Position numbers and translations under genes: made by a program. The notes under the pieces are model-generated. The model searched no databases. It worked only from the letters and a program-made list of their open reading frames with translations, and was not told the origin of the DNA. From Halodesulfurarchaeum sp. HSR-GB (GTDB taxonomy: Archaea > Halobacteriota > Halobacteria > Halobacteriales > Halobacteriaceae), in assembly GCF_031432215.1 (NCBI RefSeq), contig NZ_JAVKGN010000001.1:434001-498000 (forward strand): 64,000 nt of DNA, in the 5' to 3' direction. Below, in pieces: positions 19,776-32,979 of the stretch; the stretch's first letter is position 1, and each line of letters opens with the position of its first letter.

Positions 19776-21380
19776 ATGCAGCGGCTCCCCGATCGACTGA
19801 CCGAGACGCGGCAGTGGTTCGGCGAGCGTCGCGAAACGCTATCGCCGTTCTACCTGGCAGCCCTCCTGCTCGGGGGCCTCGTCGCCGTCCTCGTGGTCGC
19901 CCCGTTGTTCTGGCTCGTCCTCCGGGCCGGCACGGTCGAGCCGACACGGGCGATCGAGCTGGTCACGTCACGTCGCACCGTCATGATCGGGGCTCGAAGT
20001 ATCGCGCTCGTGTTGGGGACGACGGTCGCGTCTGTTCTGCTCGGGGTGCCACTGGCGGTACTCACGACCCGAACCGACCTCCCCGCCCAGCGTCTGTTCT
20101 CCGTCGTCATCGCCCTGCCGCTGGTGATTCCCAGTTACATCGGGGCCTTCGCCTTCGTCTCGGCGTTCGGTCGCCACGGTGAGGTCGGCTCCCTGCTGGG
20201 CCTGAATTTGCCCCAAATCGACGGGTTCGCGGGTGCGGTGCTGGTCATCACGCTGTACACCTATCCCTACGTGTTCCTCGGGACGCGGGCCGCGCTTCGA
20301 TCGATGGACGCCTCGCTGGTCGAGGCTGCACGGAGCCTGGACGCCGGCCCCATCCAGGCCTTTCGGCGCGTGACCCTCCCCCAGATCCGGCCCGCGATTT
20401 CCGCCGGCGCGTTGCTCGTGGCACTCTATGCGCTCTCCGATTTCGGCACGCCGGCGTTCATGGGCGTCTCCGTGTTCACGAGTGCCATCTACATGGAGAG
20501 CGAGGCGTTCAACGTGGGCTATGCGGCGTTGCTCTCCCTGCAGTTGTTGACGCTGGCGGGCGTGATTCTCCTCATCGAATCCCGAACCGGCCGCGCCAGC
20601 GGCCAGACCGCCCGGAGACGAGGGAGTCCGATCGAACTCGGGTGGCTGCGGTACCCGGCAATGGGGCTCGTGGGACTGCTGGGCGCGGTGACGATCCTCC
20701 TCCCCGTCGGGCTCTTCCTCTCCTGGATGGTGCGCGGGACCGGCGGGGCGGTCCCCTCACTCGCCTTCCAGCCCCAGCACGCCCTGAACTCGATCGGGTT
20801 CTCGCTCGCGGCCGCCCTGGTCGCCAGCGTGATGGCCCTCCCCGTGGCGTACCTCGGGGTCAGCGGCCGGAGCCGGCTGGGCCGGCTGCTCGAACGCGGG
20901 ACCTACGTCGGCTTTGCCGTTCCCGGTGTCGTCATCGGTCTGGCACTCGTCTTTCTGGGCTCGTCGACGGCTCCGTGGCTCTACCGGACGGCTCCGCTTT
21001 TGGTGTTCGCCTACGTCGTGCGATTTCTCCCCCAGGCGGTCGGGACGACCCGATCGGCCCTGGAAGGGTTCGACGACCAGGTCGCCGAAGCGGCTCGCAC
21101 CCTGAACGCCGGCCCCTGGCGGACGTTCAGGGAGGTGGTCCTCCCGGAGATCGCACCGGGGGTGCTCGCGGGTGCGGCCCTGGTATTTCTCACGACGATG
21201 AAGGAGCTCCCGGCGACGCTCATGCTCCAGCCGATCGGGCGTGACACCCTGGCGACCATGATCTGGGCCGCCCACGGGAGTCTTTACTACCGGTATGCTG
21301 CGGTCCCCGCGCTGGTGCTCATCGTCGTCTCGGGGGTCTCGATGCTCGTCCTGCTTGCCCAGGACGAAAGCGGGATCTGA
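19776..21380 (+). CDS. Iron(III) ABC transporter permease (FbpB-like)
   Basis: A 534-residue protein with two fused permease halves, each about six membrane segments. EAA loops are visible as EAARSLDAGPIQAFRRVTLP (about 183-202) and again as EAARTLNAGPWRTF near 435. The fusion is normal for FbpB. It lies five bases after the substrate-binding gene; the ATPase is divergent. Confidence 0.92.
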   Translation: MQRLPDRLTETRQWFGERRETLSPFYLAALLLGGLVAVLVVAPLFWLVLRAGTVEPTRAIELVTSRRTVMIGARSIALVLGTTVASVLLGVPLAVLTTRTDLPAQRLFSVVIALPLVIPSYIGAFAFVSAFGRHGEVGSLLGLNLPQIDGFAGAVLVITLYTYPYVFLGTRAALRSMDASLVEAARSLDAGPIQAFRRVTLPQIRPAISAGALLVALYALSDFGTPAFMGVSVFTSAIYMESEAFNVGYAALLSLQLLTLAGVILLIESRTGRASGQTARRRGSPIELGWLRYPAMGLVGLLGAVTILLPVGLFLSWMVRGTGGAVPSLAFQPQHALNSIGFSLAAALVASVMALPVAYLGVSGRSRLGRLLERGTYVGFAVPGVVIGLALVFLGSSTAPWLYRTAPLLVFAYVVRFLPQAVGTTRSALEGFDDQVAEAARTLNAGPWRTFREVVLPEIAPGVLAGAALVFLTTMKELPATLMLQPIGRDTLATMIWAAHGSLYYRYAAVPALVLIVVSGVSMLVLLAQDESGI

Positions 21381-21395
21381 GCCCAGGACGGTGGA

Positions 21396-21403
21396 GTTTA
21401 ATG
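21396..21403 (+). promoter_or_regulatory. TATA box of the TRAM protein gene
   Basis: GTTTAATG lies about 28 bases before the ATG at 21427, supporting that start and a leaderless mRNA. Confidence 0.5.
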
Positions 21404-21426
21404 GGCTGAGCCGCTATGCGCCTGTA

Positions 21427-21915
21427 ATGGCGATGTGCCCACTCGCGGACGACTGTCCCCACTTCTCTGAGCAGATCGACGGCATGGGATGTCAGCACTT
21501 CGGGGACCGGGGCGGGATGGAGTGGTGCAAACACTACTCCCAGCCCATCGAGGACCTGAAGACCGCGCCGGTGGTCCCCGGCGAGGAAGTAATCGTCGAG
21601 GTCACCGACATGCACGAGAGTGGGGCCGGCGTGGGCCACCACCAGGAGACCGGCTTTGTCATCATGGTCGACGGCGTGCTCCCCGAGGCCTGGGTCGAGG
21701 CCACGGTCGACACCGTGAAGTCCAACTACGCCCGTGCGAGCCTCGAACAGAAACTGGACGGCCCCCCGGACGACGAAGCAGACACGGCGGAAGAAGCGGA
21801 GGACACCGCGGAGACGGGCGATGAAAGCGAGGAAAAGACAGAATCCGAGGAGCGGAAAAAGCGAGCGAAAGACGACCCGCGACTGGGCAGTCGGGAGAAC
21901 TTCTGGGGAAGCTAA
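21427..21915 (+). CDS. TRAM domain protein with N-terminal Cys cluster
   Basis: A 162-residue protein. The first 45 residues contain Cys4, Cys9 and further Cys/His residues (CPLADDCPHF, CQHFG, WCKHY), suggesting a metal site. A TRAM beta-barrel follows (GEEVIVEVTDMHESGAGVG, roughly 52-110), an RNA-binding fold. The C-terminus is a long acidic tail of Glu/Asp/Thr and a final RLGSRENFWGS. Archaeal TRAM proteins can act as RNA chaperones; that role here is inference. Confidence 0.85.
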   Translation: MAMCPLADDCPHFSEQIDGMGCQHFGDRGGMEWCKHYSQPIEDLKTAPVVPGEEVIVEVTDMHESGAGVGHHQETGFVIMVDGVLPEAWVEATVDTVKSNYARASLEQKLDGPPDDEADTAEEAEDTAETGDESEEKTESEERKKRAKDDPRLGSRENFWGS

Positions 21916-21956
21916 GCGTCGGTTGCCTTTTTGGCCCGGGCGATCAAGTGCTGTCA

Positions 21957-22427
21957 ATGACCGAGGTCCCAGACGTCACTGCGATCCTGGCCCGCGCCGG
22001 GTTCGATCCGTCCGAGAGCGTGTTGACCCGACGACAGGCCGAGGTCCTCGCGCTCCGCGAGCGAGGCCTGCCACAGGCAGCCATCGCCGAGGAACTCGGC
22101 ACCTCGCGGGCCAACGTCTCGAAAGTCGAGACCAGCGCCCGGGACAACATCGAGAAAGCCAGAGAGACCGTCGCCTTCGCTGAAACCCTCCAGGCACCGG
22201 TCCAGATCGACGTGGATCCAGGGACGGACCTCTATGAGGTTCCGGACCTGGTCTACGACGGCTGTGACGACGCCGGGGTAAAAGTCCCGTACTCCGCGCC
22301 CGAGGTGATGAAACTGGTGAGCGAGGCCGCCGGGGACGCCGTCGCCGGCCGTGAGGTGAAACAGCACATTCTCGTGGGGGTCACCAGCGACGGCACGATG
22401 CGAGTCCGGGTCCAACCCGAGGACTGA
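21957..22427 (+). CDS. Tfx family DNA-binding protein
   Basis: A 156-residue regulator. An N-terminal sigma-like helix-turn-helix is seen at LTRRQAEVLALRERGLPQAA through GTSRANVSKVE (about 22-60), followed by the Tfx C-terminal domain that starts near QIDVDPGTDLYEVPD. The founding member binds near a molybdenum formylmethanofuran dehydrogenase promoter; the target here is unknown. Start is the ATG at 21957, not the GTG at 21948. Confidence 0.85.
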   Translation: MTEVPDVTAILARAGFDPSESVLTRRQAEVLALRERGLPQAAIAEELGTSRANVSKVETSARDNIEKARETVAFAETLQAPVQIDVDPGTDLYEVPDLVYDGCDDAGVKVPYSAPEVMKLVSEAAGDAVAGREVKQHILVGVTSDGTMRVRVQPED

Positions 22428-22428
22428 C

Positions 22429-22695
22429 TCACCAGGTTTCGACGGTCCCGTCCTCGATATCGGCCAGACAGGACTCACAGTCCGGATCCTCGGGCTCGAA
22501 GCAAGTTGGTCGTCCCGAGTCGATTCGCACGGCCCGCCGTTCCGCGTGTTTTCGGCACACGATCCGGGCCCGGCCGTCTTCCTCGCGTGGGAGCGTACCC
22601 TCGATGCGGCCACCCGAGAACTCCGACGACGCCGCGCCGACGGTCCGACCCACCCGGCGGGCCGCCTGTCTGAACAGGGTGCCGAGATCCGCCAT
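22429..22695 (-). CDS. Small conserved haloarchaeal Cys protein
   Basis: An 88-residue protein with four cysteines (VCRKHAERR, TCFEPEDPDCESC), plausible as a zinc site. The N-terminus is basic and helical (TLFRQAARRVGRTVG). It lies between the convergent tfx gene and the divergent rpa gene. No family I can name with confidence. Confidence 0.65.
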   Translation of the reverse strand: MADLGTLFRQAARRVGRTVGAASSEFSGGRIEGTLPREEDGRARIVCRKHAERRAVRIDSGRPTCFEPEDPDCESCLADIEDGTVETW

Positions 22696-22800
22696 GGGAC
22701 ACCTACCGGATCGAGGGCTTTCAACCTCCCGCCCATACCCAGGTTTAAGGACGAACGCGGACTACCTTGCATCGTCACCCGCACCGGGGACCGATCCATC

Positions 22801-23730
22801 ATGAGCGACATACAATCCGCGGCCGAAGACATTCACGAGGAATTCGCCGAGCACCTGGACATCCAGATCGAGGACGTGGCAAACCGGCTGGACAGACTCG
22901 TCACCGAGTACAAGGTCCCACTCTCCGAGGCGCGTCGCAGCGTGGAGAATCACTACCTCGAGGAGGCGGGCCTCGAACGTGAGGACCTCTCGGCCGGCAG
23001 CGAGACCGAGGTCTCGGTCGCGGACATCGACCAGCCCGAAGAGTGGGTCAGTCTGACCGCCCAGGTCGTCGAACTCTGGGAGCCCCGCAGCGATGCAGTC
23101 GGGCAGGTGGGCCTGCTCGGCGATGCGAGTGGCACCATCAAGTTCACCGCCTGGGCCAAGTCCGACCTCGAATCCCTCGAGGAGGGCGAGGTCTATCGCC
23201 TGGACAACGTCGTCACCGACGAGTACCAGGGCCGATACTCGGTCAAACTCAACAAGACGACCGAGATCGCCCACCTCGACGAGGAGATCGAGGTCGGGAA
23301 CAACGACACCACCATGGAGGGCGCGCTGGTGGACATCCAGTCCGGGAGCGGGCTCATCAAGCGCTGTCCCGTCGAGGACTGCACCCGAGTCCTCCAGAAC
23401 GGCCGGTGTTCGGAGCACGGCGACGTCGAGGGCGAGTTCGACCTGCGCATCAAGGGGGTCCTCGACGACGGCCGGGAGGTCCAGGACGTGATCTTCGACA
23501 GGGAGATGACCGAGTCACTCACCGGGATCGACCTGGAGGAGGCAAAACAGATGGCTCAGGACGCGTTGGACACCACCGTCGTCGCCGACGAGATGGAGGA
23601 TACCCTCCTCGGCCGGTATTACAGCGTAACCGGCCCGATCATGGGTCGCTATCTGCTCGCGAACGAGGTCGAAGAGCTCACAGAAGCCGTCGATCCGGAC
23701 GACGTTCTCATCCGGGCGAGGTCGATGTAG
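22801..23730 (+). CDS. rpa3: Single-stranded DNA-binding replication protein A (RPA3-like)
   Basis: A 309-residue RPA that binds ssDNA during replication and repair. An N-terminal helical segment (1-80) precedes an OB fold (about 82-160: EEWVSLTAQVVELWEP), then a zinc finger with CPVEDC and CSEHG near 195-215, and a second OB-like region. The length, single zinc finger and gene order rpa then rpap match the RPA3 type of haloarchaea rather than the longer RPA1. Start at the ATG at 22801. The partner gene begins at the base after its stop. Confidence 0.9.
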   Translation: MSDIQSAAEDIHEEFAEHLDIQIEDVANRLDRLVTEYKVPLSEARRSVENHYLEEAGLEREDLSAGSETEVSVADIDQPEEWVSLTAQVVELWEPRSDAVGQVGLLGDASGTIKFTAWAKSDLESLEEGEVYRLDNVVTDEYQGRYSVKLNKTTEIAHLDEEIEVGNNDTTMEGALVDIQSGSGLIKRCPVEDCTRVLQNGRCSEHGDVEGEFDLRIKGVLDDGREVQDVIFDREMTESLTGIDLEEAKQMAQDALDTTVVADEMEDTLLGRYYSVTGPIMGRYLLANEVEELTEAVDPDDVLIRARSM

Positions 23731-24333
23731 ATGGCCGAAACCACGACCCCGACCCGGGAGCCAGCACGCCGGGTCTTCGCGACGGAACTCAACGACTCGA
23801 CGTTCACGTTCAAGGAGAGTGACGACGAGCGAGCGCCGGTGTACGTTCTCCTGCCAACTGGTGAGCAGGCCAACCGGGTGCTCGTCGTCGGGACGCTGAC
23901 CGAGACCGAGGACGTGGGCAACGAACAGGAGTACTGGCAGGGCCGAGTCGTCGACCCGACGGGGACGGTCTTCGTCTACGCCGGCCAGTATCAACCCGAG
24001 GCCGCGGGGGCGCTCCGGGAACTCGAAACACCGACCTACGTCGCCGTGGTCGGAAAACCGCGCACCTACGAAACCGACGACGGCACGGTGAACGTCTCCA
24101 TCCGGCCCGAGTCGATTACGGTCGTCGACCAGGCCACCCGGGACCGCTGGGTACTGGAGACCGCCGAGCGGACCCTCGACCGACTCGAAAACCTGGACGC
24201 GGAGACGAACGAGTACGGCGTTCGGGCCCGCGAGGAGTACGAAGACGGGCCCGATCGCTACCGATCGGCCGTCGTCGAGGCCCTTGAGGGCCTGGACGAG
24301 ACCGACGCGGCGGCCGAGACCCCGGACGCGTAG
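23731..24333 (+). CDS. rpap3: RPA-associated protein (COG3390)
   Basis: A 200-residue OB-fold partner of RPA. FTFKESDDERAPVYVLLPTG and VDPTGTVFVYAGQYQPEA mark the OB domain; the C-terminal half is acidic and helical. It abuts the rpa3 stop without a gap, as in the conserved haloarchaeal pair whose products work together on ssDNA. Confidence 0.9.
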   Translation: MAETTTPTREPARRVFATELNDSTFTFKESDDERAPVYVLLPTGEQANRVLVVGTLTETEDVGNEQEYWQGRVVDPTGTVFVYAGQYQPEAAGALRELETPTYVAVVGKPRTYETDDGTVNVSIRPESITVVDQATRDRWVLETAERTLDRLENLDAETNEYGVRAREEYEDGPDRYRSAVVEALEGLDETDAAAETPDA

Positions 24334-24382
24334 TCGGGGCGTCTGACGAACCCTTAAGGAGCCAGGCACGATAGTCATCCGC

Positions 24383-24799
24383 ATGGGGAAGAAGAACAAG
24401 ACGATCTCCTTCCGGGTCAGCGAGGAGGCCTTCCAGGCGCTCCGGGACATCGCGGAGGAGCGTGACATCTCCCTCTCTGCGGTCTTTCGGGACTACGTCG
24501 ATCAACTCGTCGCTCACGAGGGGAAAGTGCGGGTCGTCCCGGAGAACGAGGTCCGGGAGACCGACGCCGAGGAGTTCCCCCCACGGGTGGAGGTCCCCAA
24601 GAGCTTCGTTCGGGAGCACGAGCGTCTGGAACTGGAGGCCCAGCACCTCCGCGATCAGCTCCAGGAACACAAAGAGTACATCACCCGCCTCCAGAAGCGG
24701 GTCGAGGAGGGCGATACAGTCGAGGAGGTCGTCCAGCTAGAGGACCTCGACGAGGAGTTCGGGTCGGAGCAAGAACCCGACCGCTACCAGATCGGCTGA
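24383..24799 (+). CDS. Ribbon-helix-helix protein with C-terminal coiled coil
   Basis: A 138-residue protein. Residues 6-50 (KTISFRVSEEAFQALRDIAE) form an RHH/CopG-type DNA-binding domain; residues 75-115 (VREHERLELEAQHLRDQLQE) are a predicted coiled coil, so it likely dimerises. The tail is very acidic. A TATA-like TTAAGG lies about 30 bases upstream. It follows rpap3 by 49 bases and may be a regulator or a DNA-organising protein; the target is not visible. Confidence 0.8.
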   Translation: MGKKNKTISFRVSEEAFQALRDIAEERDISLSAVFRDYVDQLVAHEGKVRVVPENEVRETDAEEFPPRVEVPKSFVREHERLELEAQHLRDQLQEHKEYITRLQKRVEEGDTVEEVVQLEDLDEEFGSEQEPDRYQIG

Positions 24800-25249
24800 T
24801 CAGAGCAGTTCGTGTTTGCGCTGGGCCGCCAGTTGGGCCTGTTTCTCTCGCCCGTCGACCCGGGCGATCTCCTCGACGGCTTCGAGGTTCCGGACCGCGT
24901 CGTCGAGAAACGAGTAGATATCGCCCGGATACGCATAGAGCATGTAGTCATCGGTCATCACGTCGACGATCGATTCGGGATCGAGTTTTCGCGCCCGCAG
25001 ATCGAGGAGATAGCGGATGAACTTCCGCTCTGGGTGCCCACAATAGGGGTTTGACTGACAGGAACAGTCGAGAAAGTCCTCGGCGAAGTCCAGCACTCGC
25101 TCCCGGTTTGCCTCGTCGAGTTTCTCCAGTTCGCCCTGGAAGAGCAGGTCGAGGGTCGCCCCCGAGAAGGCCGATTTCGGGAAGGAGACCTCGAGCTGAG
25201 AGGCCAGTTGGCGGTGATTTTTCACGTAGATCTTGTCCGTGATGGCCAC
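24800..25249 (-). CDS. Conserved haloarchaeal protein with CxC-CGHPE motif
   Basis: A 149-residue protein starting MAITDKIYVKNHRQLASQL. It has a Cys motif, DCSCQSNPYCGHPERKF near 81-97, followed by helices and a Lys-rich C-terminus. I recall it as one of the DUF58xx haloarchaeal families but cannot verify which. It converges with the RHH gene with no gap and stands just upstream of, and divergent from, tRNA-His. Confidence 0.7.
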   Translation of the reverse strand: MAITDKIYVKNHRQLASQLEVSFPKSAFSGATLDLLFQGELEKLDEANRERVLDFAEDFLDCSCQSNPYCGHPERKFIRYLLDLRARKLDPESIVDVMTDDYMLYAYPGDIYSFLDDAVRNLEAVEEIARVDGREKQAQLAAQRKHELL

Positions 25250-25345
25250 GCGTAGTTCGCCGTAGCCGAGAGCGGGCCAAAAGCGTGTCGGGAGCCCCCG
25301 ACCTTTCGTAACGTATTTGGGCGCGAACCCCTTGCGTTCAGCCGT

Positions 25346-25419
25346 GTCCGGGTTAGGGTAGTGGACTATCCTTCAGCCTTGTGGAGGCTGAGACGCGGGT
25401 TCAATTCTCGCACCCGGAC
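25346..25419 (+). tRNA. tRNA-His (GTG)
   Basis: An intact cloverleaf of 74 bases. The acceptor TCCGGGT pairs with ACCCGGA; the anticodon stem CAGCC/GGCTG closes the loop TTGTGGA, giving anticodon GTG; the T arm is GCGGG-TTCAATT-CTCGC. The extra 5' G (position -1, 25346) is encoded and faces C73, as in tRNA-His. CCA is not encoded. No intron. Its 3' end is repeated twice downstream. Confidence 0.95.
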
Positions 25420-25424
25420 CTTCT
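25398..25424 (+). repeat. tRNA-His 3'-end repeat, copy 1 (in the tRNA)
   Basis: This 27-base block begins in the T stem, runs through C73 and five bases beyond it. It is identical over 27 bases to copy 2 (25558-25584) and over about 21 bases to copy 3. Confidence 0.9.
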
Positions 25425-25437
25425 TTCGCGAACAATA

Positions 25438-25476
25438 CACGAGCCCGTGCTCCGTCAGGAGCCGGGCGAATGCGTG
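25438..25476 (+). ncRNA. Bulged GTCA-tetraloop hairpin, tRNA-His cassette 1
   Basis: Stem: CACG with CGTG outside, then CCCG/CGGG, a single bulged T (25448), GCTCC/GGAGC, and the loop GTCA (25454-25457). The equivalent hairpin of cassette 2 has different stem sequences but the same loop and bulge, so the structure, not the sequence, is kept. Transcription is assumed (read-through from the tRNA). Confidence 0.6.
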
Positions 25477-25557
25477 AGCGGTGAGAGCGTTCTGGGAGAG
25501 AATTGAACCCGGGAAGGCGCGCACAGCGAGCGAATGCGAGCGAGCACGCCTTCATTC

Positions 25558-25584
25558 GGTTCAATTCTCGCACCCGGACCTTCT
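25558..25584 (+). repeat. tRNA-His 3'-end repeat, copy 2
   Basis: 27 bases identical to 25398-25424. It cannot form a tRNA because the 5' parts of the cloverleaf are missing. Confidence 0.9.
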
Positions 25585-25592
25585 CAGTACAC

Positions 25593-25640
25593 TCGAACCG
25601 GTGAGCGGCTGGTCCGTCAGGACCGCCGCGAACCGTTCGA
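25593..25640 (+). ncRNA. Bulged GTCA-tetraloop hairpin, tRNA-His cassette 2
   Basis: Outer stem TCGAAC/GTTCGA, then GCGGC/GCCGC, a single bulged T (25610), GGTCC/GGACC, and loop GTCA (25616-25619). Relative to cassette 1, one base pair in the upper stem and three in the lower stem have changed on both sides. Confidence 0.6.
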
Positions 25641-25707
25641 TCGGCGATGTGCAAGCCGAAGTGCGAGATTGAATCACGCGAGACGAGCAGAATCGAGTCT
25701 CGCCATC

Positions 25708-25729
25708 GGGTTCAATTCTCGCACCCGGA
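25708..25729 (+). repeat. tRNA-His 3'-end repeat, copy 3
   Basis: 22 bases matching the T arm and acceptor 3' strand of tRNA-His up to A72; it diverges just before the discriminator base. Confidence 0.85.
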
Positions 25730-25730
25730 T

Positions 25731-25971
25731 TTCCCGACGAGCAAAGCGAGGAGTGGAACAGTCGCCGGGAACAGAATCTGCCGCTGGTAGGCGATTTCCG
25801 GCCCGTCACGCAACCCTTATTCAAACCGCCGACCAAGAACGATGGGACATTAGCTGCCATGGATCACGAGCCACGTCGGCGATTCCGTGACGAACGGGGC
25901 CACACCCCCGGGCCAGGAGACCCTCCCGGTGGACAGCAGAACCGTCACAGAACGGCCGAGAGAGGACTCAT
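25731..25971. other. Intergenic region before the sensor kinase
   Basis: Together with the two cassettes this makes a gene-free stretch of 552 bases. In this last part I see no further tRNA fragment, no convincing ORF and no clear TATA box at the expected distance from the kinase ATG; a CTTATTCAAA block at 25816-25825 is the nearest AT-rich site, which would imply a long leader. Confidence 0.5.
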
Positions 25972-28233
25972 ATGAATCAATCGGGAGGGGGAACCCCGAC
26001 ACAAATCTATCCGCTGGTCGGGGACGAGGGGGTGCGGACAGCCCTCGAAGCGGCGGTCGAATCGACGGAGCGGTTTGGGCTCGTCGAACCAGACTCGGAT
26101 CTGGAGGGATCGTTCGACCTGCTGGTGGTCGACGAAACGGAACTTGCGAATCGACGGCCGGAACTCGAAGCAAAACGCGAGGCCGCAGGCTTCGAATCCC
26201 GACCGACGCTCCTGCTCGTCTCCGAGTCACAATCCGGCACACGGAACATCCCCGAGCCGAGATCCGAGCCGATCGACGACGTGCTGGTGCTGCCGATCGA
26301 GCCGAACGAACTCGCCTGGCGACTCGGGAGTCTCTTCCAGTCGGCCGGGAGCCAGGACAAGCAAGAGCACAACGAACTGGGTCGAAGCAGGCAGTACGAG
26401 TACGCCGTCGAGGGGGCGACGGACATGCTCGCAGCGGCCGACACCGAAGGGCGGCTCCTGTTCGCGAACGCGCAGTACCGAGAGTTCCACGGACTCGAAC
26501 GAGGAGCCGTCGCGGGGACGCCACTCCAGTCGGTCCTCGGCGAATCGGACTACACGGAATTGCAGCCGCGGTTCGATCGCGTCCTCCAGGGCGAACGGGT
26601 CCAGTACGGGATGAAACGGGTGCGAGCCGACGGCGAGCGCCGGGCGATCGAGTCCTCGATGTCGCCCATGGAGGACCAGAAAGGCGAGATCGTCGGGGTC
26701 GTTTCGGCCATCCGAGACGTGACCGAACGGCAGGCGAATCTGGACGAGATCAAGCGACTCTCCGAGTACCGGCGGGTCGTCTCGGCGGTCAACCACGAGC
26801 TGGTCAGGGCCGGGCCGGACGAGGAGATCCTGCCCGAGATCGTCGACGTGCTGGCCACTAGTGACCTGTTCGGCTGCACGTTTCTCGCGCTCGTCGAGGG
26901 GAACGAAATCGAGTTCCTCTGCCAGGAAGGCAGCGATATCGCCACCCCCGAGATAGAACGCCTCCACTCCGAGGCCTACATCGAGGCCGTCTTCGAGGCC
27001 GGAACGCTCCGGATGGACGACGTGACACAGCCCCCCTTCCAGCAGCATGAGCCGGACACCGAGTCCCACAGCGGCGTGGCGATCGCGATCAGCCACGACG
27101 ATCGTCGGTATGGCATCCTCACCGTTCACTTTCCGCCGGGCCAGCCCCCCACCGATCGGGAGGTCGACCTGCTCGAAGAGTTGGCCGGGGACCTCGGGCT
27201 GGCCCTCCACGATCAGGAGTTAGAGACGGATCTGGCGACCTTCGAGGAGATCGTCCAGCGCATCGAGGACCCGATCATGCTCCAGGACCGGGCCGGGAAC
27301 TTCCAGGTCATCAACGAGACGCTGACCGAGTACGCCAACATGTCCGCCGAGGCCCTCTATGGACAGGACGAGTTCGCGTTCATGGACGAACAGACGGCCA
27401 CCGAGATCGCACGCCACAAAGCCGAAGTGATCCACGGCAACGAACCACGGACCTACGAGGTCGAGCCGAGCTTTCCGAACCGCGGGAATCGGACCTTCCG
27501 GACGACCCGCTACCCACACTACGACGAGGACGGCGAGATCGACGGCACGGTCGCGATCTGTCGGGACGTGACCGGCATTCGAGAGCGGGAGCGACAGCTC
27601 CAGGTCTTCGACCGGGTGCTACGGCACAACCTGCACAACGAGATGAACGTCGTCCTCGGTCACGCCGAAACCATCGCGAACACGGCCGAGGGCGAGATCG
27701 CGGCCGCCGCCCGTCGGATCGAGGCCGCCGGGGAGACGTTAGTCGAACTCGCCGACAAGGAACGGCAGATCGTCGAACTCCTCGAACGTCGGGAACCACG
27801 GCGGGTCACCGACGTCGGCCAAATCGTCGAGACCGTCGTCGAGAACCTGCGAGCGAACCATCCCACGGCCCGGATCAACCTCGATGTGCCAGCCCAACTG
27901 CGCGCCGTCACGACTCCCTGTATCGAGGACGCCATTCACGAGGTCATCGAGAACGCCATCATCCACACGACGGACCGAACACCCGAAATCGAGGTGCGGG
28001 CGGTTCGGGACGGCAAGCGTGTGACGCTGCGGGTCGCGGACAACGGCCCCGGCATCCCCGAGATGGACCGGCAGGTGCTCGAAGGCGCGGAAATCACGCC
28101 TCTCATACACGGGAGCGGATTGGGACTCTGGCTGGTAAACCACGTCGTCAGCGAATCCCAGGGAACGCTCAACTTCCAGGAGCGAGCGCCACGCGGGAGC
28201 ATCGTCGAAATCACCCTCCCGGGCGCGGAGTGA
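25972..28233 (+). CDS. PAS/GAF sensor histidine kinase
   Basis: A 753-residue soluble kinase without membrane segments. Order: a receiver-like N-terminal domain (about 1-125) in which I do not see a clear phospho-acceptor pattern; PAS (about 135-255); GAF (about 265-420); a second PAS (about 425-545); a HisKA-like dimerisation helix with VLRHNLHNEMNVV, His near 552; and an HATPase domain with HEVIENAIIHT, DNGPGIP and GSGLGLWL. No partner regulator is adjacent, which is common for haloarchaeal kinases. The stimulus is unknown. Confidence 0.92.
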   Translation: MNQSGGGTPTQIYPLVGDEGVRTALEAAVESTERFGLVEPDSDLEGSFDLLVVDETELANRRPELEAKREAAGFESRPTLLLVSESQSGTRNIPEPRSEPIDDVLVLPIEPNELAWRLGSLFQSAGSQDKQEHNELGRSRQYEYAVEGATDMLAAADTEGRLLFANAQYREFHGLERGAVAGTPLQSVLGESDYTELQPRFDRVLQGERVQYGMKRVRADGERRAIESSMSPMEDQKGEIVGVVSAIRDVTERQANLDEIKRLSEYRRVVSAVNHELVRAGPDEEILPEIVDVLATSDLFGCTFLALVEGNEIEFLCQEGSDIATPEIERLHSEAYIEAVFEAGTLRMDDVTQPPFQQHEPDTESHSGVAIAISHDDRRYGILTVHFPPGQPPTDREVDLLEELAGDLGLALHDQELETDLATFEEIVQRIEDPIMLQDRAGNFQVINETLTEYANMSAEALYGQDEFAFMDEQTATEIARHKAEVIHGNEPRTYEVEPSFPNRGNRTFRTTRYPHYDEDGEIDGTVAICRDVTGIRERERQLQVFDRVLRHNLHNEMNVVLGHAETIANTAEGEIAAAARRIEAAGETLVELADKERQIVELLERREPRRVTDVGQIVETVVENLRANHPTARINLDVPAQLRAVTTPCIEDAIHEVIENAIIHTTDRTPEIEVRAVRDGKRVTLRVADNGPGIPEMDRQVLEGAEITPLIHGSGLGLWLVNHVVSESQGTLNFQERAPRGSIVEITLPGAE

Positions 28234-28237
28234 TCGA

Positions 28238-29437
28238 TCACCAGCGTGGAGCCTCTGGAGACTCTTCGGCGAATCGCTCTTTGACCGCCGCACCGCGCTG
28301 ACTCGGGTTTCCGCCACTGGACTTGATGATTTCGAAGGCCGTCATCAGGTCGGTCCGCGAGATGAGGCCGGCCAGTTCGTTGTGGTCGTCGACGACCAGT
28401 AGCCGCCCGATCTTCTCCTGCTGCATGCGTTCGAGGGCCGTCGCCGCGTTCGCGTGCACCTCGACCGAGTGGAGGTCGGTCGTCATCACGTCCGCGACCC
28501 GATGGGCGTCCCGCTCGACGGGATCGATCTGCCGGGCATCCGAAAGAGTCACCACGCCGACGATCTCCTCGCTCCGTTCGACCGGGAAGCCAGTATGACG
28601 CTCGCGGAACATCTTCTCGACGAGGTCGGCCACCGTCGTTTCGGGCTCCACCGTCGAGACCGATTCGGCAGGGGTCATGATGTCCGCCACCGTCACACCC
28701 TCGAACGCCGCCTTGAGCGTGGTCTGCTGGGACTCCCCGGCAGCGCCGATGTAGATGAAAAAGGCGATACCGATGAGGATGATGTTCCCACCGAACAGTC
28801 CGGCGATTCCCATGAGGATCGCCACGCCCTTGCCGACTTCAGCGGCCAGTCGGGTCGCGCGGGCAAACGAACGCTTGCGGGCCAAAAGCGCCCGGAGGAC
28901 CCGACCTCCGTCCATCGGGAAGCCCGGAAGCATGTTGAAGACCGCCAGCGCGATGTTGATCAGCGCCAGGTAGGCCAACAGGAAGAGGAGCACGTCCGGG
29001 CCCATCGGGAGCAACACGAGCACGATCCAGAGGCCCACACCCAGCCCGACACTTACGATCGGGCCGGCGATGGCGATCAGCAGTTCGGTTCGCCAGTCCT
29101 CGGGCTGCTCGGAGAGCTGGGCGATGCCGCCCAGAAACCAGAGCGTGATCGACTCGATCGGAAAGCCATAATGCATCGCCACGAGCGCGTGGCCGAACTC
29201 GTGGAGGAGCACGCCGGCAAAGAGCCCGATGGCGGCTGCCATACCAACGAGCGCGGGCATCGAGCCCGCCGTGAGGACCGCCGCGTCGAGCTCGAGCCCC
29301 CAGAGCTGGTTGAGGAGCGCGACCAGCTCGCCAACCTGCGAGCCGATGAGCCACGCGAAAATCGGCAACACGAGGAGAAACGTGATGTTCAGTTTGACCG
29401 GGATGCCGAAGGCACTCCCAATCTTGAAGCTGCGCAT
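28238..29437 (-). CDS. Site-2 protease family zinc metalloprotease with two CBS domains
   Basis: A 399-residue M50 intramembrane protease. The zinc site is HEFGH (79-83) with the partner Asp in FPMDGGRVLRAL near 175, both in membrane segments. Two CBS domains occupy about 250-375 (VADIMTPAESVSTV, VADVMTTDLHSVEV), probably sensing an adenylate ligand. The TATA-like TATTTAA (29463-29469) is about 29 bases upstream. It is divergent from the cupin and converges with the kinase. Substrate unknown. Confidence 0.93.
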   Translation of the reverse strand: MRSFKIGSAFGIPVKLNITFLLVLPIFAWLIGSQVGELVALLNQLWGLELDAAVLTAGSMPALVGMAAAIGLFAGVLLHEFGHALVAMHYGFPIESITLWFLGGIAQLSEQPEDWRTELLIAIAGPIVSVGLGVGLWIVLVLLPMGPDVLLFLLAYLALINIALAVFNMLPGFPMDGGRVLRALLARKRSFARATRLAAEVGKGVAILMGIAGLFGGNIILIGIAFFIYIGAAGESQQTTLKAAFEGVTVADIMTPAESVSTVEPETTVADLVEKMFRERHTGFPVERSEEIVGVVTLSDARQIDPVERDAHRVADVMTTDLHSVEVHANAATALERMQQEKIGRLLVVDDHNELAGLISRTDLMTAFEIIKSSGGNPSQRGAAVKERFAEESPEAPRW

Positions 29438-29462
29438 ACCCCAGTATTCACGGCGCGTGCGG

Positions 29463-29469
29463 TTAAATA
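29463..29469 (-). promoter_or_regulatory. TATA box of the site-2 protease gene
   Basis: TATTTAA on the minus strand is about 29 bases before the ATG at 29437. The divergent cupin has its own GGTATAGT box at 29478-29485, about 27 bases before 29508, so the two core promoters lie back to back within 25 bases. Confidence 0.55.
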
Positions 29470-29507
29470 CCAATGCTGGTATAGTCCTCGCCGACAAATG
29501 CAGGGCT

Positions 29508-29885
29508 ATGCCGGAACCAGTCATCAGACACCCCGAAGAGATCGAGTACGAACCCCAGTCCGCTGCCGACGGCCTCAAGAAGGGCGTTCTAATCGGTGCG
29601 GCCCAGGACGCCCCCAACTTCCGCATGCGACGGTTCACCCTCGACCCGGGTGAGACCGTCCCGAAGCACACGAACGCGGTCGAACACGAGCAGTACGTCC
29701 TCGAGGGCGAGTACGTCGTCGGTCTGCGCGAGGACGGCACCGACACCGAGTACGAGATCGGACCCGGCGATTCACTCCTGATCCCCGCTGGAACGGTCCA
29801 CTGGTACCGAAACACCGGGGACACCCAGGCCGCGTTCATCTGTGCCGTGCCGAACGGCGAGGACGAGATCCAGCTGGTCGAGTAG
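29508..29885 (+). CDS. Cupin domain protein
   Basis: A 125-residue single cupin. Motif 1 is seen as KHTNAVEHEQYVLEGE (His residues and Glu as metal ligands) and motif 2 as GDSLLIPAGTVHWYRN. Small cupins of this kind bind a metal and may act as isomerases, dioxygenases or sensors; the substrate is unknown. Start chosen at 29508 from the TATA spacing. Confidence 0.87.
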   Translation: MPEPVIRHPEEIEYEPQSAADGLKKGVLIGAAQDAPNFRMRRFTLDPGETVPKHTNAVEHEQYVLEGEYVVGLREDGTDTEYEIGPGDSLLIPAGTVHWYRNTGDTQAAFICAVPNGEDEIQLVE

Positions 29886-29926
29886 AGCCGAGGTGCTGAA
29901 ATACCCCCGACTCCGTAGGCCGGGCC

Positions 29927-31972
29927 GTGTCCCGGCAGGCAACACACGTCGAGACGCTGTTCCTCCACGAACGCCAGGGCGACTACCTCGTGGTCGCCCA
30001 GCGGGACGGCGAGCGGCTGTTCCGGGCGACACTCGACCTGAAGGAAACCGCCGCCGGCCCCCGCCCAGCCCGCTTTCGCATCAAGGGCGACCACGACGAG
30101 GAGCCCCGGGCCCCCGAAGAGTTCGTCGAGATCGCCCGGCGCGCAGAGCGCATTCGCATCTCCCAACAGACCTCCGCCCGCGGACGGGCGGAACTGGAGG
30201 AGATGCTGGACGGCTATCAACTGGACGCCAAGGCCGTCCGAACCTGTCGACTCTGTTCGAATCAGTGGCGTTACTCCCCGATCACCACCGACACCGCGGT
30301 CAAATCCGGGAGCGAGTACATCTGTCGGGAGTGTGCGGTCCGCGAACTGGAGCGTGAACTCTCCTTCTCCGGGGGATTCTCCGGGGCCGCCGAGGCCCGC
30401 CTCGAAGAGCTCCTCTTCGAGGTCGGGGACCTCGATCGGATCGTCGATCTCCTCCAGGGCGAACTCGATCCCGACCTGACGAAGTTCGACGAGATCTCGG
30501 CGACGACCGAGGACATCGAGGACGTGCCGGTCACAGACCTGGATCTGCATCCCGACCTACAGAACATTCTCGAAGGCCGGTTCGACACGCTGCTGCCGGT
30601 ACAGAGCCTGGCCGTCGAAAACGGGTTACTCGGCGGCGAGGACCAGCTCGTGGTCTCGGCGACCGCGACGGGCAAGACCCTCGTGGGCGAGCTGGCCGGC
30701 GTCGACCGGCTGCTCAAAGGGAAGGGAAAGATGCTCTTTCTGGTTCCGCTCGTGGCCCTGGCCAACCAGAAGGAGGAGGACTTCGAGGCCGACTACGGCC
30801 ACCTGGCCGACGTGACGATCCGGGTCGGCGCGAGTCGGATCCGCGAGGACGGCATCGCCTTCGAACCCGACGCGGACATCATCGTCGGCACCTACGAGGG
30901 CATCGACCACGCCCTGCGGACGGGGCGTGACCTGGGCAACATCGGCACCGTCGTCATCGACGAGGTCCACATGCTCCAGGACCCCGAACGGGGCCACCGC
31001 CTCGACGGGCTCATCTCGCGGCTCAAACACTACACCGAGACCCGAGCACGGGGCGCGGGGGACACCCAGTGGATCTACCTCTCGGCGACGGTCGGGAACG
31101 TGGGCAAACTGGGCGAGGTACTGGAGGCGACACCGATCGAGTTCGAGGAGCGCCCAGTCCCGATCGAGCGCCACGTCACCTTCGCCGACAACCAGGAGAA
31201 ACCCCGGATCGAGAACAAACTCGTCCGGCGGGAGTTCGATCACACCTCCTCGATGGGGTATCACGGCCAGACGATCATCTTCACCAACTCCCGGCGGCGC
31301 TGTCACGAGATCAGCCGCCGGCTGGATTACGCCTCCGCGCCCTACCACGCGGGCCTGGATTACGGCAAGCGCAAGCAGGTCGAGCGGGAGTTCGCCGATC
31401 AGGATCTGGCGGCCGTCGTGACCACCGCCGCCCTGGCCGCGGGGGTGGACTTCCCGGCCTCCCAGGTGATCTTCGACTCGCTGGCGATGGGCATCGAGTG
31501 GCTCTCGGTCCAGGAGTTCGAGCAGATGCTCGGCCGGGCGGGCCGCCCCGACTACCACGACCGCGGTCGGGTCTATCTCCTGGTCGAACCCGACGCCGTC
31601 TACCACGGGTCGATGGAGCGCACGGAGGACGAGGTCGCGTTTACCCTCCTCAAAGGCGAGATGGAGGACGTGGTGGCTCACTACGACGCTGACGCCGCCA
31701 TCGCGGAGACGCTGGCGAACGTCACGGTCGGCGGGTCGGCCGCAAAGCGACTCAACGACCGGATGCTCGGGGAGATTCCCACGAAGCAGGCCCTCTCGAA
31801 GCTCATCGAGTACGGGTTCATCGACGGCCTGGAGCCGACCCCGCTGGGTCGGGCGGTCACCACTCACTTCCTCCAGCCCGACGCGGCGTTCACGATCCTG
31901 GATCACGTCCGCAAGGGGACTGACCCCTACGACATCGTCGCGGATCTCGAACTGCTCGACGAGGAAACTTAG
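29927..31972 (+). CDS. Ski2-like DEAD/DEAH-box helicase with N-terminal zinc-binding domain
   Basis: A 681-residue SF2 helicase with a GTG start. An N-terminal beta-rich domain (1-100, likely DUF5814) is followed by a Cys cluster (CRLCSNQW, CRECAVRE, about 106-145). Helicase motifs: SATATGKTLVGE near 243, DEVHMLQDPERG near 345, SATVGN, then FTNSRRRCHEISRR, TTAALAAGVDFPA and QMLGRAGRPDYHDRG. This resembles archaeal Hel308/Ski2 relatives. DNA or RNA unwinding is expected; the pathway is not shown by the context. Confidence 0.9.
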   Translation: MSRQATHVETLFLHERQGDYLVVAQRDGERLFRATLDLKETAAGPRPARFRIKGDHDEEPRAPEEFVEIARRAERIRISQQTSARGRAELEEMLDGYQLDAKAVRTCRLCSNQWRYSPITTDTAVKSGSEYICRECAVRELERELSFSGGFSGAAEARLEELLFEVGDLDRIVDLLQGELDPDLTKFDEISATTEDIEDVPVTDLDLHPDLQNILEGRFDTLLPVQSLAVENGLLGGEDQLVVSATATGKTLVGELAGVDRLLKGKGKMLFLVPLVALANQKEEDFEADYGHLADVTIRVGASRIREDGIAFEPDADIIVGTYEGIDHALRTGRDLGNIGTVVIDEVHMLQDPERGHRLDGLISRLKHYTETRARGAGDTQWIYLSATVGNVGKLGEVLEATPIEFEERPVPIERHVTFADNQEKPRIENKLVRREFDHTSSMGYHGQTIIFTNSRRRCHEISRRLDYASAPYHAGLDYGKRKQVEREFADQDLAAVVTTAALAAGVDFPASQVIFDSLAMGIEWLSVQEFEQMLGRAGRPDYHDRGRVYLLVEPDAVYHGSMERTEDEVAFTLLKGEMEDVVAHYDADAAIAETLANVTVGGSAAKRLNDRMLGEIPTKQALSKLIEYGFIDGLEPTPLGRAVTTHFLQPDAAFTILDHVRKGTDPYDIVADLELLDEET

Positions 31973-32371: not shown

Positions 32372-32444
32372 GGGACCGTAGGGTAGCTTGGTATCCTTCG
32401 AGCTTTGGGTGCTCGTGACCCCGGTTCAAATCCGGGCGGTCCCA
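32372..32444 (+). tRNA. tRNA-Pro (TGG)
   Basis: A 73-base cloverleaf: acceptor GGGACCG/CGGTCCC with discriminator A (32444), anticodon stem CGAGC/GCTCG, loop TTTGGGT giving anticodon TGG, and T arm CCCGG-TTCAAAT-CCGGG. CCA is not encoded, and there is no intron. Its 3' end is repeated downstream in both orientations. Confidence 0.95.
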
Positions 32445-32454
32445 CTTTTCCGAC

Positions 32455-32507: not shown

Positions 32508-32533
32508 GTGGGACCATCCCGGATTTGAACCCA
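32508..32533 (+). repeat. Inverted copy of the tRNA-Pro 3' end
   Basis: Complementary to the T arm and acceptor 3' strand of tRNA-Pro, with a short mismatched part (CAT for CGC-like bases). It can pair either with the direct copy at 32566-32589 or with the tRNA itself. Confidence 0.8.
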
Positions 32534-32590
32534 GGAAACCGAGCGAGGGACGAGCGAGGTTTGCGCTGGTTCAAATCCGGGCGGCCCCCG

Positions 32591-32979
32591 TTTCGACGAA
32601 CGCAGTGAGGAGAAACAGGGGCCTCGTCGTGGAGCGAAGCGGAACGACGGCGGTCCCATGGACCTTTTTCATCGTCGGGTGCGCTTCGCGCACCACTCCT
32701 CGAAAAATCTCCACCAAAAAAGCTCGTCGCTCACTGCGTTCGCTCCGAGTGAACCGCCTCGCTCCGCTCGGCGGATGCAACTCCACCCACTTTTCGACGA
32801 ACAAAGTGAGGAGAAACAGAGGCCTCGTCGTGGAGCGAAGCGAAACGACGGCGGTCCCATGGACCTTTTTCATCGTCGGGTGCGCTTCGCGCACCACTCC
32901 TCGAAAAATCTCCACCAAAAAAGCTCGTCGCTCACTCCGTTCGCGACGAGTGAACCGCCTCGCTTCGCTCGGCGGATGC
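32591..32979. repeat. Two-copy tandem repeat, 201-base unit
   Basis: Copy A is 32591-32791 and copy B 32792-32979, nearly identical. Each carries the palindrome GGTCCCATGGACC, a hairpin GTGCGC-TTC-GCGCAC, CCGCC/GGCGG around TCGCTCCGCTC, and the 10-base string GGCGGTCCCA (32649-32658, 32850-32859) that equals the acceptor 3' end of tRNA-Pro. In copy A, CGAACGCAGTGAG (32597-32609) and its complement (32730-32742) form 13-base inverted repeats. Overlapping ORFs on both strands are explained by the repeat and are not called. Confidence 0.85.

Follow-up and report, generated by a model that had tools for sequence, protein, structure and literature searches.

The question raised by this locus is whether the copies of a tRNA T arm that follow the tRNA-His gene form a switch acting on that tRNA, as had been proposed, or belong to another kind of element. 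The window, i.e. the complete stretch of 64,000 nucleotides of Halodesulfurarchaeum sp. HSR-GB DNA that was analysed, carries two units 3' of tRNA-His, which gives the array the layout D-h-I-h'-D-h-I-h'-D (Table 1). Here D is the tRNA 3' end from GGTTC into the trailer, I is the inverted copy of D, and h and h' are hairpins. Both units run in the order trailer, h, I, h', D, and all repeats share the GG|TTC edge on the 5' flank of the T loop as their start. The claim that an inverted copy is complementary to the T arm of tRNA-His as well as to a downstream direct copy was borne out. The T-arm part of I1, GAGAATTGAACCCG (25498-25511), is a 14-nt complement of the T arm at 25396-25409 and of the third copy at 25707-25720, and its complementarity to the direct copy spans 12 nt (25558-25569). 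The direct copies are indeed present, and their extent had been understated (Table 1). The outer part of I1 (25491-25496) is able to pair with the acceptor strand. The h hairpins of the two units are 73% alike and their differences are compensatory. A search of Rfam over 25200-26000 yielded no match except the tRNA. The h of unit 2 has short matches at G000:C1:1563224-1563253 (L013) and C1:688513-688529 (L012), where ARAGORN gave no tRNA in the fetched stretch.

Table 1. Features of the two tRNA-associated arrays, in positions of the window.
Feature	Position	Strand	Basis and remarks
tRNA-His (GTG)	25347..25420	+	ARAGORN; Rfam RF00005 49.7 bits; encoded G-1 at 25346
D1, tRNA 3' end, GGTTC through discriminator and first trailer bases	25398..25424	+	repeat family
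h hairpin, unit 1 (GCCCG-TG-CTCC-GTCA-GGAG-C-CGGGC)	25441..25470	+	repeat comparison; fold z -4.3
I1, inverted copy	25491..25511	+	T-arm part 25498-25511; acceptor part TCTGGG 25491-25496
h' hairpin, unit 1, type A, GGAAGGCGCGC...GAGCACGCCTTC	25512..25557	+	fold, h' typing
D2, direct copy	25558..25584	+	27/27 identity to tRNA 3' end and trailer (25398-25424)
h hairpin, unit 2	25603..25632	+	repeat comparison, fold; congener has unrelated h instead
I2, inverted copy, imperfect, one base short	25661..25675	+	fold, repeat search
h' hairpin, unit 2, type B, ACGCGAGAC...GTCTCGCCATCG	25676..25708	+	fold, h' typing
D3, direct copy	25709..25735	+	85% identity over 27 nt
tRNA-Pro (TGG), second array in window	32372..32445	+	ARAGORN
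I copy 3' of tRNA-Pro	32518..32531	+	repeat search
D copy 3' of tRNA-Pro	32568..32590	+	repeat search, tRNA flank reading

The original prediction held that a transcript running through the array would have two exclusive folds, and that the downstream direct copy would protect the tRNA as a decoy. Two such folds, the native tRNA and a misfold in which I pairs with the tRNA, were obtained in the computation. For the transcript 25346-25515, which ends with I and includes the encoded G-1, the misfold was predicted as the MFE structure (-84.6 versus -77.0 with the native tRNA enforced). In the transcript up to D2 the misfold stayed favoured (-122.1 versus -119.2; probability 0.81 with D2 alone), and the native fold became the MFE structure in the transcript to D3 at 25735 (-197.5; probability of I:tRNA pairing 0.10). 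The calculation was extended to 30 first units of two species, all with intronless tRNAs that form the acceptor stem in their own MFE structure. In 26 of these I was predicted to disrupt the native acceptor stem at equilibrium. D2 reduced the penalty in 21 of the 30 arrays (median from 5.2 to 3.1 kcal/mol) and restored the native acceptor in one, its probability being <0.5 in the other 29. Because of these 29 cases and the misfold probability of 0.81 in the presence of D2, D2 is no effective decoy at equilibrium, the state that was modelled; co-transcriptional folding, tertiary contacts and processing lie outside the model. The protective role was therefore unsupported. Folds of this type would arise wherever a tRNA end forms a palindrome.

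The window contains a second array, 3' of tRNA-Pro. Beyond its unit about 170 nt (32599-32770) recurs at approximately 32797-32970, with GNA hairpins on both strands. In the whole genome 44 tRNA matches with their flanks were compared, from which duplicates and the ARAGORN artefact Ser(cga)i, which overlaps Ala-GGC, had been removed. At least one D copy was present within 700 nt 3' of 19 of the 44 genes, with 30 D copies in total. As controls, the 5' sides were searched, where D copies were found at 0/44 genes, and the tail of another tRNA was used for scoring, which gave D copies in 67 of 1886 swaps. These two comparisons exclude chance at the level of the family. The D copies are mostly exact: of 44 downstream 20-mers beginning with TTC, counted with at most eight mismatches, 23 match perfectly. 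Over the five T-stem positions D has 0.11 mismatches in this genome and I has 1.54.

Tailoring of I to the adjacent tRNA was determined for the 218 units with a recognizable I, the remaining 22 of 240 segments having no T-loop anchor. At base 57 of the T loop I agrees with its own tRNA in 196 of the 218 units (A/A in 132, G/G in 64; 22 mismatched), and in the T stem it agrees with this tRNA at 3.44 of five positions, versus 2.49 for other tRNAs. On the acceptor side the tailoring is weak. A gapped test gave 4.17 for the own tRNA versus 3.70 for others, a significant but small effect, and in an ungapped test 25 of 214 matched, versus 3.1% for random tRNAs. As the loci outside this genome were mostly retrieved by the T-arm pattern, counts derived from them describe a biased sample.

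The remaining modules are shared between loci. Among 143 pairs of similar unit segments in two congeners, 98 link tRNAs for different amino acids. In the congener the units of tRNA-Lys and tRNA-Arg-CCG are 92% identical over their full length, and yet their outer I blocks are distinct (CGGCC versus CGGAC), each as its own tRNA requires. In the shared-module units of the congeners I and D match each local tRNA. This combination of cross-amino-acid pairs and local arms implies that the modules travel between tRNAs and that the arms stay local. The type D h' hairpin is tRNA-locked: 23 of its 30 fetched matches have the I end and 21 of these 23 run on into GGTTC, the other seven matches being chance-like.

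Orthologous tRNAs of the two congeners carry arrays that are unlike in unit number and module type. At tRNA-Glu(CUC) one unit is present in this genome and the congener shows a precise empty site, where the downstream sequence is joined straight to the tRNA; counted from the first base past the tRNA, the flanks are 93.3% identical over 150 nt. Alternatively, this empty site could have arisen by deletion between D repeats. A comparable pair of presence and absence was found at tRNA-His in another genus (L064 versus L080), where the T loops are not alike and the case is therefore less clean.

The h' hairpins can be sorted into discrete types, in which the internal loops beside the T-arm stem are conserved and the upper stems vary (8 of 218 segments, with an h' of <15 or >110 nt, were left out of the typing). 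Covariation was examined in alignments of type A (A1, 17 sequences) and type D (A2, 22 sequences), which were chosen by type and equal length and are therefore illustrative and no census. Cells changed on both sides of a pair numbered 25 for type A and 19 for type D, values that were reached by 0 of 500 shuffles each, and the same was true for the covariation score. The number of pairs with a change on both sides was less striking, being reached by 53/500 and 20/500 shuffles, respectively. On the tRNA-sense strand of h', G-A cells prevail over C-T cells by 364 to 10, tandem G-A steps are frequent, and a C-GNA-G triloop closes 71 of 187 apical loops. The combination of tandem G-A steps and this triloop occurs 33 times in sense and 11 times in antisense orientation in the 400 nt 3' of this genome's 45 tRNA rows, counted with the artefact row, and once upstream; six of its seven copies in the window lie 3' of tRNA-Pro. 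In type A (columns 23 and 38 of A1) an A facing C, flanked by a CG and a GC pair (CGCGC/GCACG), is retained by almost every sequence, as if the mismatch itself were required. Finally, a longer hairpin, CCCACTTTTTCCGAGGGGCTGC..GCAGCCCCTCGCAAAAACTTGGGGAAAAAGACCGC, recurs 3' of the tRNA at L009, L010, L011 and other tRNA-Gly and tRNA-Leu loci, at times within a unit, and may represent a terminator or a repeat of its own.

The arrays are restricted to one order. The T-arm signature GATTYGAAYC-N(20-50)-GGTTCRAATC was present in 242 of 293 genomes of the Halobacteriales (74 of 87 genera), and the reversed pattern, used as control in the same 293 genomes, gave 0 matches. In a sample of the whole phylum 52 of 60 Halobacteriales genomes carried the signature and none of the 235 other genomes did. 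Haloferax profundi (L168) is among the species with units. Scanning of named genomes yielded at least 120 matches; among the matches listed (80 titles) 16 were non-haloarchaeal, and inspection of these 16 by eye revealed none of the h' types, the loops being of other kinds. Of 20 loci on viral contigs one (L267) is a haloarchaeal unit and the remainder are bacterial or due to chance. In L267 (13744-13920) a contig of a haloarchaeal tailed virus adjoins tRNA-Glu(TTC) with one type D unit, which may be owned by either virus or host. The viral contigs L275, L276, L278, L281, L285 and L286 and the Bifidobacterium loci L197 and L200 contain palindromes that are almost perfect; their ends, GATTTGAACC..GGTTCAAATC, resemble a T arm, and their core is of the GGACCTCTGG/CCAGAGGTCC type. 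Possibly these are inversion or attachment sites made from half a tRNA.

As to whether the units function as DNA or as RNA, the mismatches in the stems are informative. The h' stems contain 24 G-T and 77 A-C cells, versus 146 G-T and 18 A-C in the real tRNA stems of the same loci, a contrast that is less lopsided than these raw counts, as many of the A-C cells in h' stem from the one conserved mismatch of type A. In the I:D duplex, positions 54-65 have 84 G-T and 95 A-C cells. Since G-T is not commoner than A-C, the pairing of h' and of I with D does not show the tolerance of wobbles that selection on an RNA duplex would be expected to leave. At position 53 of this duplex, G-T occurs in 102 of 218 units and A-C in 0 of 218, an excess such as RNA wobble would give, which counts against the DNA reading. 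Energy models do not favour DNA over RNA for h': the fold z-scores were -1.47 with RNA parameters and -0.74 with DNA parameters, the latter from a parameter file without triloop terms. GNA loops on G-C stems form extraordinarily stable mini-hairpins in DNA (PMC4686876). On balance we lean towards units that act as DNA.

Integron attC sites form arrays bounded by short core sites with an inverted GTTC/GAAC arrangement, and the consensus of their R box is GTTRRRY / RYYYAAC. The tRNA arrays resemble them in outline, with units between short inverted GTTC/GAAC core sites, a one-strand hairpin with an internal loop and a variable upper stem (as seen in the G-A bias and the covariation), and the gain and loss of single units. 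However, the units are gene-less, the tRNA tail that forms their core varies from locus to locus, and it reads GTTCRAA / TTYGAAC instead of the R box consensus. By eye, no IntI-like integrase was recognized among the ORFs of 20000-31000. The arrays are not integrons. REP/BIME palindromes, with their RAYTs, are likewise short and non-coding and recur throughout a genome. The units differ from these in lying at tRNA 3' ends, with stems taken from the local tRNA and direct copies of the target, and the copies in many places that repeats derived from REP/RAYT or IS200/IS605 elements would have were not seen, type D h' being followed by a T-arm copy in nearly all real hairpins. The same likeness and difference apply to the PATEs and SMRs of Haloquadratum (PMC3119063). 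Archaeal integrative elements that target tRNA genes (PMC8371274) also have inserts flanked by direct copies of the tRNA 3' end and leave the tRNA intact, whereas the inserts studied here (75-160 bp) are gene-less and without integrase and have a tailored I and shared hairpins.

The reading that we prefer, and to which we give an even chance, is that the arrays consist of gene-less, hairpin-forming DNA insertion units of approximately 75-160 bp, anchored on the tRNA 3' ends of Halobacteriales. Such units would arise and spread as DNA: recombination at the T loop, or copying of a template there, would regenerate D and I from the local tRNA. By analogy with integron attC sites, the tRNA-sense strand might act as folded single-stranded DNA, and the exact D repeats would then permit exchange or deletion of whole units. 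Archaeal XerA is reported to bind stem-loop structures of att sites (PMC8371274), which makes XerA one candidate enzyme. A benefit to the host might lie, for example, in the units serving as decoy att sites. Somewhat short of an even chance, in our view, is the more far-reaching proposal that they constitute a new mobile or self-amplifying class, gene-less DNA hairpin cassettes of Halobacteriales that insert solely at tRNA T loops and have both arms rebuilt from the 3' end of the new tRNA.

A rather doubtful alternative places the function in RNA: the array would be co-transcribed with the tRNA and RNase Z would cut after each D, releasing hairpin RNAs with tRNA-like 3' ends and a conserved role. 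It would account for D being near-exact through discriminator and trailer while I is not (0.11 versus 1.54 T-stem mismatches), for the invariable tRNA-sense orientation, the covariation of the hairpins, the better z-scores with RNA parameters and the G-T pairs at position 53. It is opposed by the rarity of G-T relative to A-C in h', the 84 to 95 ratio at positions 54-65, the turnover of arrays between congeners and the failure of Rfam to match anything but the tRNA, and by the prediction that I, if transcribed, breaks the tRNA fold in 26 of 30 cases. The switch of the original prediction meets the same lack of wobble tolerance and, in spite of its two computed folds and the easing of the penalty by D2 in 21 of 30 arrays, it would have to explain why the native acceptor was regained in just one of 30, why D copies are missing from 25 of the 44 tRNA genes, of which some share the isotypes, and why congeners have unlike arrays. 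Regulation of tRNA output through misfolding by the inverted copy and protection by the downstream copy is a most improbable reading.

Two further explanations concern the origin of the units. Successive prophages might have left att remnants through integrases acting on tRNA 3' ends. Archaeal integrases prefer tRNA genes (PMC8371274), prophages of Haloquadratum are marked by partial tRNA duplications (PMC3119063), and the tailed-virus contig next to tRNA-Glu with its single unit is in keeping with this. Yet prophage relics supply neither an inverted copy nor conserved h' types nor hairpins common to many tRNAs, leaving I and h' unexplained from the outset; the units measure about 100 bp and are without genes; and tRNA-targeting integrases occur outside the order as well (PMC8371274), where the signature was absent from all 235 genomes sampled. 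This origin is improbable. Little probability is also given to passive palindrome amplification, in which fork stalling and snap-back template switching at strongly folded tRNA ends would make D-h-I-h'-D with no dedicated machinery or function. Template switching does produce copies that alternate in direction, tailoring to the locus and near-perfect, wobble-free stems, but discrete h' types conserved across families, a single orientation and exact boundaries suggest a specific process, and the signature is missing outside the order although all organisms there have tRNAs.

An earlier description of such arrays was not found in the literature searched, in which subscription journals were barely covered. 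The nearest reports are the prophage-linked partial tRNA duplications and the PATE/SMR repeats of Haloquadratum (PMC3119063). The arrays appear to be an undescribed structured element whose arms are copies of host tRNAs, at nearly half of this organism's tRNA genes and in the majority of genomes in its order. Haloarchaea that are genetically tractable allow a test of the alternatives. Should the units be mobile, they would represent a new kind of genetic element that has its own ends rewritten to fit the target; if they are transcribed, they would bear on how these archaea keep the folding of their tRNAs correct.
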